Shown piece after piece: positions 1 to 59,642 of a stretch of 64,000 nt of DNA (within the stretch, counting starts at the first letter, position 1; each line of letters begins with the position of its first letter). The stretch spans positions 54,910,091 through 54,974,090 of the forward strand of contig NC_053044.1 in the NCBI RefSeq assembly GCF_003473485.1, in the 5' to 3' direction. A program made the position numbers and the translations under genes. This DNA comes from Medicago truncatula. Taxonomy: Eukaryota; Streptophyta; Magnoliopsida; Fabales; Fabaceae. The notes under the pieces are model-generated. The model searched no databases. It was not told where the DNA came from and saw only the letters and a list, made by a program, of their open reading frames with translations.

Positions 1-182
1 GAAAGTTTTAGACTGATGTGGAATATTTTACTTTTATACGAGCAAGTAGTGTTTAATTGCTTTCATCAAGTTCAATTTTAAAAATATTAGTTTATTTTTG
101 GTATTGTTTCCATGAGAATAAGTTTTGTCTGGATAGTTTTATACGACCTAGTAGTGTTTAATTGTTTTTTTTTTTCTCTTTC
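1..182. other. AT-rich sequence left of the inverted repeat
   Basis: No coding exon or repeat end is recognised. If the Trp-tRNA synthetase exon at 3437 belongs to a live gene, this is probably part of its last intron, but no upstream exon is visible in the window. Confidence 0.4.
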
Positions 183-424
183 AATTGTGCGATTTTGGCC
201 CCTCTAGCTTCAGTTGAGCAATTTTGGCCACCTACATTTACCCCCTTTCTGATTTTTTAATCCCTCATTCAACTTTTGACGTTAATTAGCTGATGTGTCA
301 TTTTAATGCAACATGTTCCGTCCTGTTGGTTGGAGTGGATTTTTTAAAAAATATTATAAAAAGGAAGTATCTACAAAACAACAAAAAATGAAAAACGTTC
401 AACATTTTTTCCAAGAAGGTGAAG

Positions 425-840
425 GCACATACATAAGAAGAATTTAGGAATTTGTAATCCTTAACTGCCTTAACCTCAATGTGTGTGCCATACCTTCAAC
501 TTGAACATCACTTTGCATTCATCTTGTCAGTCACAACATGAAACATGTGCTTCCACAATTCCTTTGCATTCTTCGTTGCCGAGTTAACACAACAAATGAA
601 ACTACTTGTTTGACAACAACACATAGTGGTAAAGATTAGGATCTTCAACTTCATAAGGAGTGGGCTTCCCCTCATCTATATACTTCTCCGAATGAGCAAT
701 CCGCTCTTTCCATCAGCCTCATTGATAGACGATGCAAGCTCTTAGGAATGGACTTGGTGGCAATCAAATTTGAGAAAGCACCCTGCTTCATTGCCTTTGT
801 ATCGTTCAACTTCTGAATCTTGAGCTAGTTATTGAAGGAC
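425..840 (-). pseudogene. Captured galacturonosyltransferase (GAUT) fragment, left arm
   Basis: Read on the minus strand this gives GAUT-like peptides in broken frames, including KQGAFSNLIATKSIPKSLHR, a MRLMER/IAH stretch, DEGKPTP, VEDPNLYHY and NAKELWKHMFH, then a DYKFLNS-like end near 445. In intact GAUT proteins (QUA1-like clade, Golgi enzymes of homogalacturonan synthesis) this segment lies before the GT8 catalytic core. Only this segment is present; the DxD metal-binding region is missing. It is not expected to make a protein. The matching copy in the other arm is at 2490-2945. Confidence 0.7.
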
Positions 841-1029
841 TCCTTTCTAATGTTGAACGTGTTTCATTTTTTGTAAAAAATAAGTCATGTGAGGGTATTT
901 AATATTAATACTTTTTTTTTTCATAATATTTTTTTAAAATATGCAGCAAATAGGAAAAGAAATAAACCCCACCAACTCTCACTAACATTGTCCTGTCCGT
1001 CTTACAAAATTCAAACTGATTCACACAAC

Positions 1030-1640
1030 ACAAGCAATTGCGAATTCCGCATCCAAAGGCGTGCAGAGCAACAACGATGGCAATCCATTCAACGCCAGCT
1101 GAACTCATGTCGCCTAGACATCAATGATAGGAAGAGAGAATTTGATTATCTAACAATGTCGGTGTATGAAAAAGAGAAAGGCTCGGAGAAAAGGCCAAGG
1201 ATATTGAAGATCAAGTGAAGGATCTCGAGTCCATCAAGAATAATTATCAATTACATGTGAACGTGCTTGAGATTAAAGAACAACGGAACAAACTGCTCAA
1301 GACAAAACAGAAAGCGTTTGAAGAAAGAGAGAAGCAGTTTGTAGAATAAGGTGCGTGAATGACAAGTGAAGTACCTTGATTTGAAAGAGGAACAGTTTGT
1401 TGAGCGAGAGCAAGAGCTTGAATCAAGATTTGAAATCCAACAGAAGGAACTCGGAGAAAGAAAGAAGATGTTTCATTCGAACGAGGACCGTGTTGAAAAG
1501 TTGAATGTGCTTGATTCATTGGAGGAGCAACTTGAAGAAAGAGAAAAGGTGCTTGTTTCAAAGGAGAAGTTCAAACTGCAAGTAATGCATCTTAGCGAAA
1601 CAAAATCAGTTTGAAGACCAGGAGCTCTTCAATCCTGTGA
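1030..1640 (+). pseudogene. Captured FRIGIDA-like coiled-coil fragment, left arm
   Basis: The plus strand encodes short frames rich in Glu, Lys, Gln and Leu, such as INDRKREFDYL, VKDLESIKNNY, KQKAFEEREKQF and LEEQLEEREKVL. Stops and frame changes separate them. The style resembles the long coiled-coil part of legume FRIGIDA-like proteins, one of which lies at 55.9-59.6 kb here. Coiled coils are low in complexity, so the family call is tentative. The inverted partner is at 1690-2300. Confidence 0.5.
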
Positions 1641-1689
1641 AACAATATTTAAAGAGCAGCAGATACTTGACTACGTATGAACTCATGTT

Positions 1690-2300
1690 GTTTCACAATA
1701 GTGAAGAGCTCCTGATCTTCAAACTGATTTTGTTTCGTCTCAAGATACATTACCTGTAGTTTAAACTCCTCTTCCTTTGAAACAAGCACCTTCTCTCTTT
1801 TCTTCAAGTTGCTCCTCCATTGAAACAAACACCTTCAACTTTTAATCAAAGTTTTCGTTAGAATGACACACCTTCTTTCTTTCTTCAAGTTCCTTATGTT
1901 GGATTTTAAATATTGATTCAAGCTCTTGCTCTCGCTCTACAAACTGCTCCTCTTTCGACTCAAGGTACTTCACCTGTCCTTCATGCACCTTGTTCTACAA
2001 ATTGCTTCTCTCTTTCTTCAAACGTTTTCTCTTTCATCTTGAGCAGTTTGTACCTTAGTTCTTTTATCTCAAGCACGTTCACACGTATTTGATAATTATT
2101 CTTGATGGACTTGATATCCGTCGTTTGATTTTCAATATCCTTGGCCTTTTCTCTTTAATATCCTTGGCCTTGAACGGATTGTAGTCGTTGTTGCTTTGCT
2201 TTTCTCTAGATAATCTATGAATCGAATTTTGAAGCGATGCAAGTTCTTGGCGAAGCATGTTGTAATCTTTTATCTTTTCTTGAATGAAATGCGGCGGTTC
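1690..2300 (-). pseudogene. Captured FRIGIDA-like coiled-coil fragment, right arm
   Basis: This is the inverted copy of 1030-1640. It begins at 1690 with the complement of the sequence that ends the left copy and contains the same elements, for example the complement of the KDLESIKNNY coding stretch near 2095-2125. It is broken by stops and small indels that differ from those in the left copy, so the arms have diverged since they formed. Confidence 0.5.
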
Positions 2301-2489
2301 CATGTCTCTCAAAGGTTTCTTTCTTCTAGAGTCAATCGCTTCTGTTGTGTGAATGAATTGGGTTTTGTAAGAGGAAAAGGACAACGATAGTGGGAGTCGG
2401 TGAGGTTTCCGTCCTCTCCTATTGGCTGGATATTTAAAAAAATATTATGAAAAAGTATTAATAATGAAACATGTTCAACATTAGAAAGG

Positions 2490-2945
2490 AGTCCTTTAAT
2501 ATAACCAGCTCAAGACTCAACAGTTGAAGGATACAATTTTTGCTGTGAATGAACCGTTAACAAAGGCAAAGAAGCAGGGTGCTTTCTCGAGTTTGTAGCT
2601 GAGGCAAAGAAGCAGGGTGCTTTCTCAAGTCCATTCCAAAGCACTTGCATTGTCTATCAATAGGCTTATGGAAGAGCGGATTGCTCATCCGGATGAAGGG
2701 GAAACCTACTCCTGCTGAAGTTGAAGATCCTAATCTTTACCACTTTGTGTCGTTGTCAGAGAAGTTGCTGCATCTGTTGTGTTAACTCAGCTACAAAGAA
2801 TGCAAAGGAACTGTGGAAGCACATGTTTTATGCTATGACCTACAAGATGAATCTAGGAGCAATGCAAATTGATGTTCAACTTGAAGGATTATAGTGGCGC
2901 GCACATTGCAGCTAACGATTACAAATTCCTGAATTCTTTTTAAAT
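2490..2945 (+). pseudogene. Captured galacturonosyltransferase (GAUT) fragment, right arm
   Basis: The plus strand shows KQGAFS, MEERIAHPDEG, TPAEVEDPNLYHF, NAKELWKHMFYA, TYKMNLGAMQ and then MFNLKDYSGAHIAANDYKFL, all matching the pre-catalytic region of GAUT enzymes in order but in more than one frame. A short internal duplication of the AKKQGAFS stretch is visible near 2560-2625. Together with the left-arm copy at 425-840 it makes the outer part of the inverted repeat. Confidence 0.72.
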
Positions 2946-3436
2946 ATGCGCCTTCACCAGCTTGGTAAAATGTTGAACATTTGTTGTTGTTTTGTTAATA
3001 CTTCTTTTTTATAATAATCAATAAGGGGGTATGTGTGTTTGTGTGTGGGTGGGTGGGGTGCCAAAATCGCTCAACTAAAACTAGGGGAGAAATCGCAAAA
3101 TTACAATAAGGCTTTTATATTACTTAAAAAAAAAAGTGTTATTATTATGCAGTTATTTTATTATAAAAATACTGGTATTAATATAAATTAGCATTTGTAA
3201 TAATATTTTGTACCTAGAGTTGGTCATGCATTATATTCATGTTTCCGAGAAGTAGTCTTTGTTAGCGGATATAGTTTTTTTTGTTTCCTTCTACCCCTAT
3301 GTAGTCTCTTCAACTGGTTAGTAGACATAGTTTTTTTTTTGTTTCACTTGTATAACTATTTGCCCCTCACATATTTTCTTTGTGAGCTTAGGGTCTTGCA
3401 TTATCACTCAAAGTTTTTTTTTCTTCTTTTTAACAG

Positions 3437-3574
3437 GTTCGCTATGAGGAACTCATGTCAGATTCAGGTTATTTAGATAAAGTATTAGGAGAAGGTGCTA
3501 AAAATGCAGCAGATATAGCGGATGCTACTCTTCATAATGTTTACCAAGCAATGGGATTTTCGAGGAGACAATGA
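3437..3574 (+). CDS. Tryptophanyl-tRNA synthetase, organellar, last exon (partial gene)
   Basis: A pyrimidine-rich tract ending in AACAG at 3436 is followed by an open stretch of 45 codons and a TGA at 3572-3574. The peptide starts VRYEELMSDSGYLDKVLGEG and ends NVYQAMGFSRRQ, the usual C-terminus of plant chloroplast/mitochondrial Trp-tRNA synthetase, which charges tRNA-Trp for organelle translation. The catalytic HIGH/KMSKS part would lie in exons upstream of the window. The exon is intact with a good acceptor, so it may be the true last exon of a live gene whose last intron contains the foldback element at 183-3110. A retained fragment of a dead gene cannot be excluded. Confidence 0.75.
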   Translation, partial: VRYEELMSDSGYLDKVLGEGAKNAADIADATLHNVYQAMGFSRRQ

Positions 3575-4557
3575 TGGATGATGCTAAACATATAAGCTAT
3601 AAGATTGGTGAGATGACCACTTAATTAAAGCTAATTTTTATATGATTCATCATCAGCCTCATTTTGGAGTAATCATGGGCATGTATAGTTCACCGCTGGA
3701 AGTGGAAATATTATTTGACGCAAAGCCTAAAGGTTGTGTATTCCTGATGCAATAAGCTCGTTTTTTTTTTTTTTTTTGGTTCACTCAATGACTACCGCTG
3801 TTGCATTCTTTTAGTTTTACTTTACTTGTTTTCGGTCTTCTTCATTATTTATTTGCACTGTAATATTGAAACCAAATTGATAAAGATTTCACCATTGTAT
3901 TTGATGGAGACACAACCTAGTCATCTTAAGTTGGGATTTTCTGCAATGCATAACTCTGTTTATGAGAGAAAGACAGAGGACTGCATTGATGCTAATGGTA
4001 GGCCTTTTTTGATCGGACATTTTATCTTACTCAAATAAATTTCTTTATATTGTTAAGTGGATTCGAGAGATATGATAGGGAATAAGCTTAGCATCTTTAT
4101 TCTTTTAATATCAATTTGCACGGTAAAGAAGGGGGAACTCGAATAAATTTCTTCATATTGTTAAGTGGATTCTAGAGATATGCTAGGGAATAAGCTAGCA
4201 TCTTTATCCTTTTTTCAGTACTAGTTTATTTTTATTTTGTATTTATGATCTATCTACAGATATGCAAGGTCCCTTTAGCATGCATCCATGGAAGTATTGG
4301 TCCACAGCGGACCAAAATTTCCAACATTGATATCTTTATTGAAATTCTAATTAATGAATTGTCAACATCAAATTATTTCCATCTTTCCCCCCATTTTCTC
4401 TTCCGCTCATGTAGATCACAATTTAAAGATAAGATATGATAATTAATGAGGAACAAACTATAATTACAACAGGCTCACTACCTACATAGGACAGTTAAAC
4501 ATCAGGCTCACTTATTTTCTTTTCCATTCATAATTACAACTGGATGGTTAAACTATA
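3575..4557. other. Probable 3' UTR and intergenic DNA with a direct repeat
   Basis: The first few hundred bases after the stop at 3574 are probably the 3' UTR of the synthetase. A 70-odd base sequence at about 4036-4108 is repeated at 4141-4212. A small open frame at 3826-4038 resembles nothing I know and has no coding signature. Confidence 0.5.
4036..4212. repeat. Direct repeat, two copies about 105 bases apart
   Basis: Both copies contain an ATAAATTTCTT-ATATTGTTAAGTGGATT stretch followed by GAGATATG and GGGAATAAGCT. The tail of the unit (GGAATAAGCTAGCATC) occurs a third time at about 4618-4640, inside the Stowaway-like MITE at 4558-4710. Confidence 0.7.
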
Positions 4558-55932: not shown

Positions 55933-58900
55933 ATGTCAAACTGTTTATCTGACTCTGAATCTGATTATGATGATGAACCTGTGAGAGGAAAGAAGTTATT
56001 GTCAACTTTCAATTTGGGAACATGTAGTAATAATAACTCTGATTGTTCTGCTCAGTAGAGGCTTACTACACTTCCAATTAAGAGTGCCTTTTGCTGATAA
56101 CAACAATTCCTTCCGCACTTCGGTTAAGAAGCCAAAGGTGTATGTGAGGAGGTTGGTCGATAGGCCATTTTCTGTGAGGATGAATCACATAAAGAGAGAA
56201 TTTGATATGGTTGAAATTTTGATCAGGAACTGCGAAAGAATGAAGAATGTGGAGGAGCTAAAATTGCAATCCCTTGAGAGAGATGTTAAGGAGCGTTCCA
56301 ACGAGCTTCTAAACAAGAAAAAGCAGGTTGGTTGTGTCAGAAGAATTAGTCAATATTACACTAAAATGCAGAGTAAAATTGAAAAATGTGTTAAAGATCT
56401 TGAAGAAAAGGAAGCACCGGTGTGTTTAATTGAGGAGTTGATTAAAAATTACAAGCATGAGCTCAAGAAAAATGAGATAGAACTTCGTAAAATCGAGGCT
56501 AACAACAATAAAGATGGTGGAAGGAAGAGGAGCTCGAGACTCTTACGCAAAAAAGTTGATAAATCTACTAAGGAAATTAAGACCAAAGAGGAAGAGTTTG
56601 ATGCTTTGAAAATATTTGTTAGTGGTAAAATAGAAGAATTACAGTAGAAATGCGTAAGTTATCAAAAGTAATGGACAAGAGGGACAAGAGGAGTACTGAT
56701 CAGCATGATCAAATGAAAGACTTTGAGTCAATGAAGAAGCAATTTGAAGATCGGGTTACGGAGCTTGATTCCAAAGAGAAGCAATGTGACCGGCGGCTAA
56801 AGGAGCTTGATTCAAACGAGAAACACTTTAAAGTACGAGCGAAGGAGTTGGAGTCGAAGCAAGAGAAATTTGAAGGTCGAGTGAAGGAGATTACATCAAA
56901 AGAGGAGGCATTTGAAGGTCGGGTGAAGGAGTTTGAATCAAAAGAGGAGGACTTTAAAGTCCAAGTGAAGGTACTTGAAATAAAAAGGAAGCATTTTGAA
57001 AGCCAGTTAAAGGAGCTCGGATTAAAAGAGAAGCTATTTGCGAGTAAATGAGTTCGAATCAGAAAAAAAGGATCTTGAAAGGCAAGAGAAGGAGCTAATT
57101 TCAAAGGAGGAGCAATTTGAAGGTCGAGTGGTGGAGTTGAAATCTAAAGAGAAGAAATTTCAAGGCCAAGTAAAGGAGCTGGAATCGAAAAAGAAGCGTC
57201 TTGAAAGGCAAGTGAATGAGCTAAATTCAAAGGAGAAGCAACTTAAAAGTTGGGTAAAGGAGGTTGAATCAGAAAAGAAGCATTTTGAAAGCCAAGTGAA
57301 GGAACTCAAATCAAAAGAGAAACAATTTGAAGGACGGGTGAAGGAGATGGCGTCAAAAGAGCGACAACTTGAAGTCCATGTAAATGCAATTGAATTGAAA
57401 GAGCACGAATTTAAAGGCAAATTGAAGGAGCTTGAATTAGTAAAGAAGCATCTTGAAAGCCAAGTGAAGGATCTCAAGTCAAAAGAGAATCAACTTGAAG
57501 GTCGAGTGAAGGAGTTTGAATCAAAAGAGGTGAACTTTGAAGACCGGGTGAAGGAGCTCGGTACAAAAATGAATGATTTTGAAAGCCGAGTGAAAGAGCT
57601 AGGTACAAAACAGAAGTTTTTCGAAAGTCGAGTGAAGGAGCTTCGATCAGAAGAGGAGGAATTTAAAGGCAAAGTGAGAGAGTTTAAATCAAAAGAGAAG
57701 GACTTTGAAGGCCGCGTAAGGGAGTTTGAATCAAAAGAAGAGGAATTTGAACTAAATCGTTTTGAACTGCAACTAAAGGAGCTGAAATCAAAAGAGAATC
57801 AATTTGAAGGGCAACTGAAGGAACTTGAGTTAAGAGACAATCAATATGAAACATTTATAAAATCTTTTGAAGAGGAAATTGAATCAGGTAAATGTTTTCC
57901 CTCATCTAGTTTAATGAGACAATTTCATTTCAACCTGATATAATGATATTGGTTGTTACTTATAGTATAAAATAAAATGATTTATCTATCATCCATGCAT
58001 TCCAATCTAGGAGAGAGGTTACATTCTTTCATATTATATTATATTTTTTAAAATTCCTATTGGCATGTTGATTTTCTGTACATCTTTCACAGAAGATCAT
58101 CCAAATCCTGCCATTGATGGAAGAAGCTTGCAGTTTCTCCGAGTTGAACAGACTGACGAACTTGAGTCACATGGAAATGACATTCTAGTCAATCTTCTAG
58201 CATCCTCAGATCCATCAAAAGATGTTCTGGATATAATACAGAACCACATCATTCCACATTGTAAGGGAGACAATGTTGTAACTATTAATGGTAGCCACGT
58301 TGTTCTGCTTGAACAACTAATGAGAATCTCACCACATATCAAACCTCATGTACAAGAAGAAGCATTGAAACTAGTCCTCAATTTGAAAGCGTACATTAGT
58401 GAAAATACTGAAAATTCCGTGGTGGTTCTTGGTTATCTGCTCCTTCTGTCAATTTATGGATTGGTTCCTTATTTTGATAAAGATGAAATTTTGAAGTATT
58501 TTGGATTTGTTGCTCAGCACAAAATAGCAGTAGAGCTGTTTGGAATGATGGGTTTGACACATAAAATTTCTGGTATGTTAGCTTAAAATGTTTTGATCAT
58601 ACACTAGTATCTCCTTTCTTGTTTTTCTGTACATTTGAGCCATTATACTTATTTTCATCTCACTTTGAAGTGTATGTTACTTCAAGTGGTAATGAAATGT
58701 GTGAATATTTGCTGGTAGGAAATTGAACTGATATTAGATTGGCTTCATACAGTAGATGTAAAAGTTTAATTTTGCTTCCCCCAATAGGTCATATCTCCTT
58801 TGTTATGAGAAAATTGGTATTTTTATCTAATGCTGTGAAAATGAAATAGACTTCAAATATATATCTCTTTTATTAGTCTTTAAATTTGGAAATGATTTGT

Positions 58901-59642
58901 TGTTTTGTTTAAAGACAAATTTGTAACGGAAAAAGTCCGATTAAAATTGGCAGTTACAAGTAGTCAGTGTTGTTAGATGGCAGCGCCATGGTCGCATTCT
59001 GCCATGGAGTGGCAGATTTTTTGAAAACAGCCATAGGAAATTTGTAAAGGAATGCCCACCATGGCAAACCTTCGGCCATCGATAACACGGTAGTAGTTAC
59101 TTCTGAATTCCCTTTATATTATGTTAATAGTTTTGGTTGATATTTTAAATGGTGAGATGTTCTCATTTCTTCCCCCCACTTATTTTGAGATGTATTCAGC
59201 TCATGAAGCGTAGTTTTCTCGCACCTTGCAGATTTTGTTCAGAATCTTATCGATAATCAGCAACATGTTGAAGCTGTTAGATTCATTTGTGCTTGTAACA
59301 TTACCAACAAGAATCAATCATCCGTTGATCTCTTGTGGGAACTTGTGCAGTGGGCAAAAGTGATTTCTGAGAGCAACTGCAAGAAAACCAACTCCATTGA
59401 AATCAAGGTTCGTATTTCTTATTCAAATTCCATTCTATTTTATGATACATTCCATTTTCATGTACCTGCACGATAGTTATAAATAAGTTGAATGTGAATT
59501 CAGGATAAAGCAAGAGACCAAGAAATTGCTAGTCTGGTGCGTTTCGGATAACAATATAGAATATGTGGATTTACTTGACCAGATTCAAGGTAGAATTCTT
59601 GAGCTAAACAAACAGAAAGGCAAACAGCGTTTGAATTTGGAG
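55933..59642 (+). pseudogene. FRIGIDA-like protein with long coiled coil, broken copy
   Basis: Start MSNCLSDSESDYDDEPVRGK at 55933. A coiled-coil region runs 56084-57887, built from about 26 copies of a 14-residue unit (QFEGRVKELESKEK type). The Frigida domain follows in exons 58093-58572, 59232-59407 and 59504-59642: DPSKDVLDIIQNHIIPHCKG, LLEQLMRISPHIKPHVQEEA, NSVVVLGYLLLLSIYGL, FVAQHKIAVELFG, FICACNITNKNQ, DKARDQEIASL. FRIGIDA-like proteins act in nuclear complexes; FRIGIDA itself promotes FLC expression. Breaks: TAG at 56057-56059, frame changes near 56080, 56645 and 57045, and one near 59537 after EIASL. The coding pattern is otherwise well kept, so decay is recent, or the coiled-coil repeats tolerate re-framing; a functional shorter product is possible. 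Confidence 0.8.
56740..57843 (+). repeat. 42 bp coding tandem repeat (14-residue coiled-coil unit)
   Basis: Units align as two heptads: QFEGRVKELxSKEK with Phe/Leu at position 2, Val/Leu at 6 and Leu/Phe at 9. About 26 units are visible, diverged by substitution; one is distorted at the frame break near 57045 and one near 57750 has an insertion. Confidence 0.85.

Follow-up and report, generated by a model that had tools for sequence, protein, structure and literature searches.

What made the long palindrome near the left end of a 64,000-nucleotide stretch of the Medicago truncatula genome (C3:54910091-54974090, hereafter the window), and could RNA copied from it act on the genes that it resembles? 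The first-pass annotation of this DNA had described a natural hairpin locus at 183-3110, with two diverged inverted arms that each hold a GAUT and a FRIGIDA-like fragment and that might match functional members of both families. We followed up this description at the locus itself and in the whole genome (430 Mb in 42 contigs).

Anatomy of the palindrome and its gene fragments

The inverted repeat is genuine and far exceeds chance. Aligned globally, 156-1680 and the reverse complement of 1685-3112 score 1386.5, against a best score of -75 among 20 shuffles; 1,302 columns are aligned at 84.4% identity and 349 are gap columns. This confirms two inverted arms that have diverged. A repeat finder arranges the inverted pairs in a chain from near both element ends to the centre, and the arms are also recovered by a blast of the region against the 64-kb window. 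The annotated interval placed the locus correctly but fell slightly short, as the terminal repeats reach about 156 and 3112 (Table 1). The left end is blurred because of a direct repeat in the intron (29-63 and 134-168), which adjoins the left side of the element and includes a motif resembling the start of the terminal repeat.

Table 1. Features of the palindromic element and its host intron, in window positions.
Feature	Position	Strand	Remarks
Host intron, window part	1-3436	+	first 82 bases left of the window, from C3:54910009; GT...AG ends
Whole palindromic Mutator-like element	156-3112	none	C3:54910246-54913202; about 2,957 bp; from repeat pairs and end motifs compared with relatives; exact ends uncertain
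Left terminal inverted repeat	156-408	+	part 183-264 matches an 82-bp MITE terminal repeat
GAUT (glycosyltransferase family 8) exon fragment, left arm	409-850	-	parent exon C7:25560310-25560723
Inner terminal-repeat remnant, left arm	849-939	-	closes the GAUT unit, inverted
FRIGIDA-like coiled-coil fragment, left arm	1000-1648	+	sequence match
Hairpin loop	1649-1684	none	36 nt, approximate; bounded by paired arms 1596-1648 and 1685-1737
FRIGIDA-like coiled-coil fragment, right arm	1685-2345	-	sequence match
Inner terminal-repeat remnant, right arm	2427-2482	+	sequence match
GAUT exon fragment, right arm	2485-2945	+	match to C7 exon
Right terminal inverted repeat	2969-3112	-	internal deletion
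Last exon, tryptophanyl-tRNA synthetase gene	3437-3574	+	ends in TGA

From outside to inside, each arm consists of a terminal repeat, a GAUT fragment, an inner inverted remnant of the terminal repeat and a FRIGIDA-like coiled-coil stretch; the presence of two gene families in each arm thus holds, on the basis of a match to a GAUT exon on C7 and a match to FRIGIDA-like coiled coil. In the left arm the inner remnant pairs with the outer repeat at two places, 849-874 with 381-406 (96%) and 908-939 with 341-370 (84%). Each half has the look of a small element that carries a gene, made of terminal repeat, GAUT piece and inverted terminal repeat, to which a FRIGIDA-like fragment is joined, and the whole looks like a mirror-image double of it. 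Identity between the arms amounts to 88.3% in the main FRIGIDA-like segment, 87.3% in the GAUT segment and 78.3% in the terminal repeat. It drops to only 69.3% in the first FRIGIDA-like segment (left 1001-1180), probably because each arm has lost different pieces: left 1117-1175 and right 2218-2325 correspond to successive parts of a related FRIGIDA-like gene on C4, and different parts of it seem to be gone from the left and the right arm.

The C7 exon is 82% identical to one arm over 390 bp and 76% identical to the other over 484 bp. Its gene is also the best protein match of the GAUT piece and has an open frame of 442 amino acids with a Glyco_transf_8 domain (PF01501, 9e-55). This gene is probably a GAUT; its match to GAUT_1 is weak (0.077). 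The FRIGIDA-like part of the arms comprises coiled coil only and is related to an open frame on C4 that encodes 459 amino acids with PF07899. Among the best candidates scored in the genome search there were relatives but no donor, the nearest being this C4 gene and a stretch on C8 (the best, 84% over 90 bp) that adjoins a FRIGIDA-like match. Ten short, broken frames of the arms were scanned with Pfam without any hit over the cut-off, and neither a FRIGIDA domain nor a transposase was matched in them; the longest open frame inside the element, among those listed, has 121 amino acids.

A FRIGIDA-like gene 53 kb away in the window (55985-59476; PF07899, 2.6e-18) had been annotated as a decayed family member. 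The gene is present and its coiled-coil part is spread over three overlapping frames, but both stretches of its FRIGIDA domain are free of internal stops, so that the decay is confirmed in part only. Elsewhere, FRIGIDA-like matches are densely clustered at C2:45.20-45.71 Mb, which suggests a local family expansion. A further palindrome, more diverged at 65% identity, contains FRIGIDA-like coiled-coil sequence at C5:270879-272570 (L015 1480-3171) and shows no match to the terminal repeat of the window element.

Mutator kinship and spread of the GAUT unit

The hallmark of the Mutator superfamily is a target-site duplication of 8-11 bp, usually 9 bp. About 40 of the 85 matches in the genome search cover solely the terminal-repeat end of the query, over its initial 70-190 bases, a count in which one copy can appear twice, once for each end, and for which only the best candidates were scored. 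The 82-bp terminal repeat matched at the left end belongs to a dispersed MITE family, and the left terminal repeat as a whole is about 74-82% identical to copies of the dispersed family. Nine short copies of 479-491 bp were examined; L020, the copy for which a fold was predicted, forms a near-complete palindrome with a longest helix of 121. When three longer relatives are included, exact 9-bp target-site duplications flank 8 of 12. At the window element itself no clear duplication was found; the best candidate has two mismatches, and its left copy lies away from the end motif. The GAUT hairpin on C4 has none either (four mismatches). Mutator membership of the window element thus rests on terminal-repeat kinship, and its insertion as a unit is deduced from its relatives. 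It has Mutator-type terminal inverted repeats and contains GAUT and FRIGIDA-like host fragments with no match to a transposase in the ten frames scanned, and the GAUT fragment has an identifiable donor in the C7 gene. By these features the element is classed as a decayed, non-autonomous, palindromic Mutator-like element of the Pack-MULE type.

The GAUT unit is present on other chromosomes, and at C4 and C6 it is adjoined by the terminal repeat that also occurs in the window element. In a tree, seven GAUT sequences from the elements in the window and on C8, C4 and C6 group together to the exclusion of the C7 parent (support 100/98): GAUT was captured once and then spread. The only fork drawn within this clade joins the left arm of C4 with C6 (84/82), and the tree does not pair the two arms of one element. 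The C8 hairpin has no FRIGIDA-like part. A capture order with GAUT first and FRIGIDA-like later fits this hairpin and the segment identities, and we do not rely on it.

The C8 palindrome (C8:45583205-45584288; L009 2006-3089) is flanked by exons of one gene at C8:45580658-45580828 and C8:45584640-45584831, whose first exons, when joined, give a G-patch domain (3.4e-16). The C4 palindrome (C4:63481960-63483148; L011 1961-3149) is in an intron of a UTP6-like gene, between two matches to UTP6_C, at profile 4-109 (8.9e-11) and 193-245 (3e-4, below the Pfam cut-off). Its GAUT unit is reversed relative to the terminal repeat. Together with the window element in a tryptophanyl-tRNA synthetase (TrpRS) gene, three of three two-armed GAUT hairpins are intronic, a count that covers two-armed hairpins only, out of at least five GAUT-carrying element loci (window, C8, C4, C6 and C3), and that stands without a background rate of intron location for the family. 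A tendency of the elements to insert near genes and to survive in introns could account for it. The C6 copy (L012) is partial, with a TRF2/HOY1-like exon about 1.4 kb off. The C3 copy has been reduced to the end of its GAUT piece and lies in a cluster of nested palindromes (C3:49246153-49252896; L013 1954-8697), which contain FBD-domain fragments and parts of the terminal-repeat sequence of the window element.

Host intron, predicted hairpin and candidate targets

Exon matches and splice-site motifs place the element in the last intron of a bacterial-type TrpRS gene, a location that the first-pass annotation had missed. The intron measures 3,518 nt, of which the element makes up 84%. The left exon ends at C3:54910008 and is followed by a GT donor, the AG acceptor lies within 3431-3436, and the flanking exon matches cover about C3:54909919-54910014 and window 3437-3574. 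Taken singly, two of the TrpRS exons gave nothing in Pfam. The flanking exons, assembled manually with the two exons before them (L029), match bacterial-type tryptophan--tRNA ligases (2.5e-17) and positions 211-328 of the TIGR00233 profile (9e-19). Further upstream, the same strand has stretches that match parts of profile positions 2-168; each of these scores below the family cut-off, which split exons would lead one to expect. A second TrpRS-like gene is located at C8:1.298-1.302 Mb. The translated C-terminal exon pair of the window's TrpRS gene has no other match in the genome at E up to 1. Since the element is inside the intron, transcription of the host gene would be expected to cross both arms, which gives the read-through assumed in the annotation an anatomical footing, and since it is a palindrome, a hairpin RNA would result in whichever orientation.

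The predicted fold of 156-3112 as plus-strand RNA has a minimum free energy of -1583 kcal/mol, compared with -726 (sd 14) for ten dinucleotide shuffles. It is one long hairpin: 72% of the bases are paired with a partner beyond the centre, and 12 helices run for at least 21 bp without interruption, the longest for 51. Two control stretches gave z values of -2.4 and +2.3 and no helix above 13. The fear that the arms might be too diverged to pair over 21-nt stretches is not borne out in this prediction, and the stem has the paired stretches of at least 21 bp that are looked for in long-hairpin siRNA loci. Long, near-perfect hairpins are the usual substrates of DICER-LIKE enzymes. The C8 and C4 hairpins also fold far better than shuffled sequence (z -43 and -34, 15 shuffles each), with three and two helices of at least 21 bp.

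Nothing in the arms points to selection for the hairpin, and their decay looks neutral. Among transitions between the arms of the window element, 47 leave a G-U pair in the plus-strand RNA and 53 an A-C mismatch (p 0.62); the two outcomes are about equal, so the persistence of the structure does not imply function. In a rough comparison with arms cut at the midpoint, the corresponding ratios were 15:20 for the C8 hairpin (p 0.50) and 17:36 for the C4 hairpin (p 0.013, favouring loss of pairing). None of the three is biased towards pairing-preserving transitions, so selection on the hairpin is not supported. Nor is the GAUT segment of the arms better kept than the main FRIGIDA-like segment.

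The expectation that the arms match functional genes is plausible by sequence for one family and unsupported for the other. Among 1,306 21-mers taken from the C7 exon, 13 occur unchanged in the element and 209 do so within two mismatches; a control stretch has none within three. Seen from the arms, the left GAUT fragment contributes 141 of 450 21-mers within two mismatches and seven exact ones, the right 122 of 470 and six. Ten sites in this exon differ by no more than one mismatch from each of the window, C8 and C4 hairpins. The C7 GAUT gene is thus a plausible candidate target as far as sequence goes. Neither arm has an exact 21-mer in the three FRIGIDA-like gene regions compared (C4, C8 and window), and few lie within one mismatch, so that FRIGIDA-like targets are unsupported and these genes appear as poor ones. 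Within two mismatches, the counts are 33 of 620 (left) and 65 of 641 (right) for the C4 region, 22 and 10 for the C8 region, and three and four for the FRIGIDA-like gene of the window itself.

Competing explanations and known systems

We give a probability of roughly 70% to the following reading: a non-autonomous Mutator palindrome captured GAUT and FRIGIDA-like fragments, landed in the last TrpRS intron and now decays neutrally as a co-transcribed hairpin. The palindrome, the relatedness of the terminal repeats to a family with 9-bp target duplications, the single C7 origin of the GAUT piece and the intron position can be read directly from the sequence. The GAUT exon fragment would have been captured once and the FRIGIDA-like coiled-coil fragment later or separately, both being carried in both arms when the element inserted into the TrpRS gene. 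From the TrpRS promoter, both arms would then be transcribed into a single pre-mRNA, which would fold into a long hairpin with imperfect pairing. This RNA would largely be spliced out and degraded, and splicing could excise the hairpin ahead of dicing; a part would be cut by DICER-LIKE enzymes into 21-24 nt siRNAs. Dicing would probably be at a low level, with the element perhaps a modest siRNA source, and 24-nt siRNAs from the terminal repeats would be independent of read-through. The main consequence would probably be local or directed at the family, with the element and related copies becoming methylated. The C7 GAUT gene might be silenced weakly, the post-transcriptional effect on its mRNA being at most weak.

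The strongest competitor, which we regard as possible without favouring it, is an inert intron relic whose transcript, whether or not it folds, is spliced and degraded and yields no siRNAs of consequence. The neutral-looking decay of the arms, with their gap columns and 84% identity, agrees with it, and the host intron must be spliced in any case; but hairpins so long and perfect are typically diced (compare PMC13213937). An active natural RNAi locus, kept by selection, whose abundant 21-22 nt siRNAs cut the C7 GAUT mRNA, is unlikely. The exact and near-exact C7 21-mers against a blank control, the long uninterrupted helices and the intronic C8 and C4 hairpins with their shared sites would suit such a locus, yet pairing-preserving changes show no bias, the GAUT arms are not better kept, and the shared C7 sites follow from common descent and do not require selection. 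Still more doubtful is a dispersed RNAi device driven by host promoters, in which palindromic hairpins from one GAUT capture, placed in the introns of three genes (TrpRS, G-patch and UTP6-like) that would each supply double-stranded RNA, would jointly lower C7 GAUT mRNA.

Two other origins appear very improbable. Inverse duplication of host gene fragments by recombination, with no transposon involved, would account for the missing target-site duplication at the window element, but not for terminal repeats common to a dispersed family, nor for a GAUT unit on other chromosomes with the terminal repeat beside it on C4 and C6. The slimmest chance goes to the precursor of a microRNA gene: the anatomy fits the starting point of the target-gene inverted duplication model, as outlined in PMC10004981, but a search of window 1-4000 gave four weak matches and no Rfam family at gathering score. 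A microRNA identity was rejected, as no curated miRNA family reached this score there.

If the hairpin is transcribed and diced, a gene-capturing transposon would have turned an intron into a promoterless source of small RNAs against an unrelated cell-wall gene, and with three intronic hairpins that share one captured exon, the transition from transposon to silencing locus becomes testable. If it is inert, whole-element palindromes are documented as a route to doubling captured fragments. A literature search, to which subscription journals were mostly closed, gave among the matches listed nothing on the window locus or on a palindromic MULE carrying GAUT.

Mu killer of maize is reportedly an inverted MuDR derivative whose hairpin transcript silences its transposon family. 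Both are inverted-repeat transposon derivatives, the hairpin transcript of the window element being predicted, but Mu killer targets a transposon family whereas the window arms match host genes. In engineered hairpin RNA constructs a transcribed hairpin targets a gene by homology; unlike these, the window hairpin is natural, diverged, itself intronic and without a deliberate promoter. Closer to it, as a natural inverted repeat homologous to host genes, is the VIM4-VIM2 repeat of Arabidopsis Cvi-0, for which PMC13213937 describes read-through transcription and siRNAs active in trans, with small-RNA data. That repeat is made of two neighbouring genes, whereas the window case is an intronic transposon whose siRNAs are putative. 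MITE-derived hairpins are covered in PMC10004981.

PMC4858842 and PMC3310237 describe Pack-MULEs as non-autonomous, with Mutator-type terminal repeats and host gene fragments, some from two parental genes. The window element shares all of this, with fragments of two genes; in the usual case, as described there, the fragments are internal, between the terminal repeats, whereas here they occur in both arms and the whole is palindromic. In 48 of 61 MULEs with multiple long terminal inverted repeats, each end has an external and an internal repeat arranged in tandem, and some members contain a gene fragment (PMC3310237). The window element likewise has extra inner terminal repeats, but its inner repeat is inverted, and its GAUT unit has been doubled into mirror-image arms.
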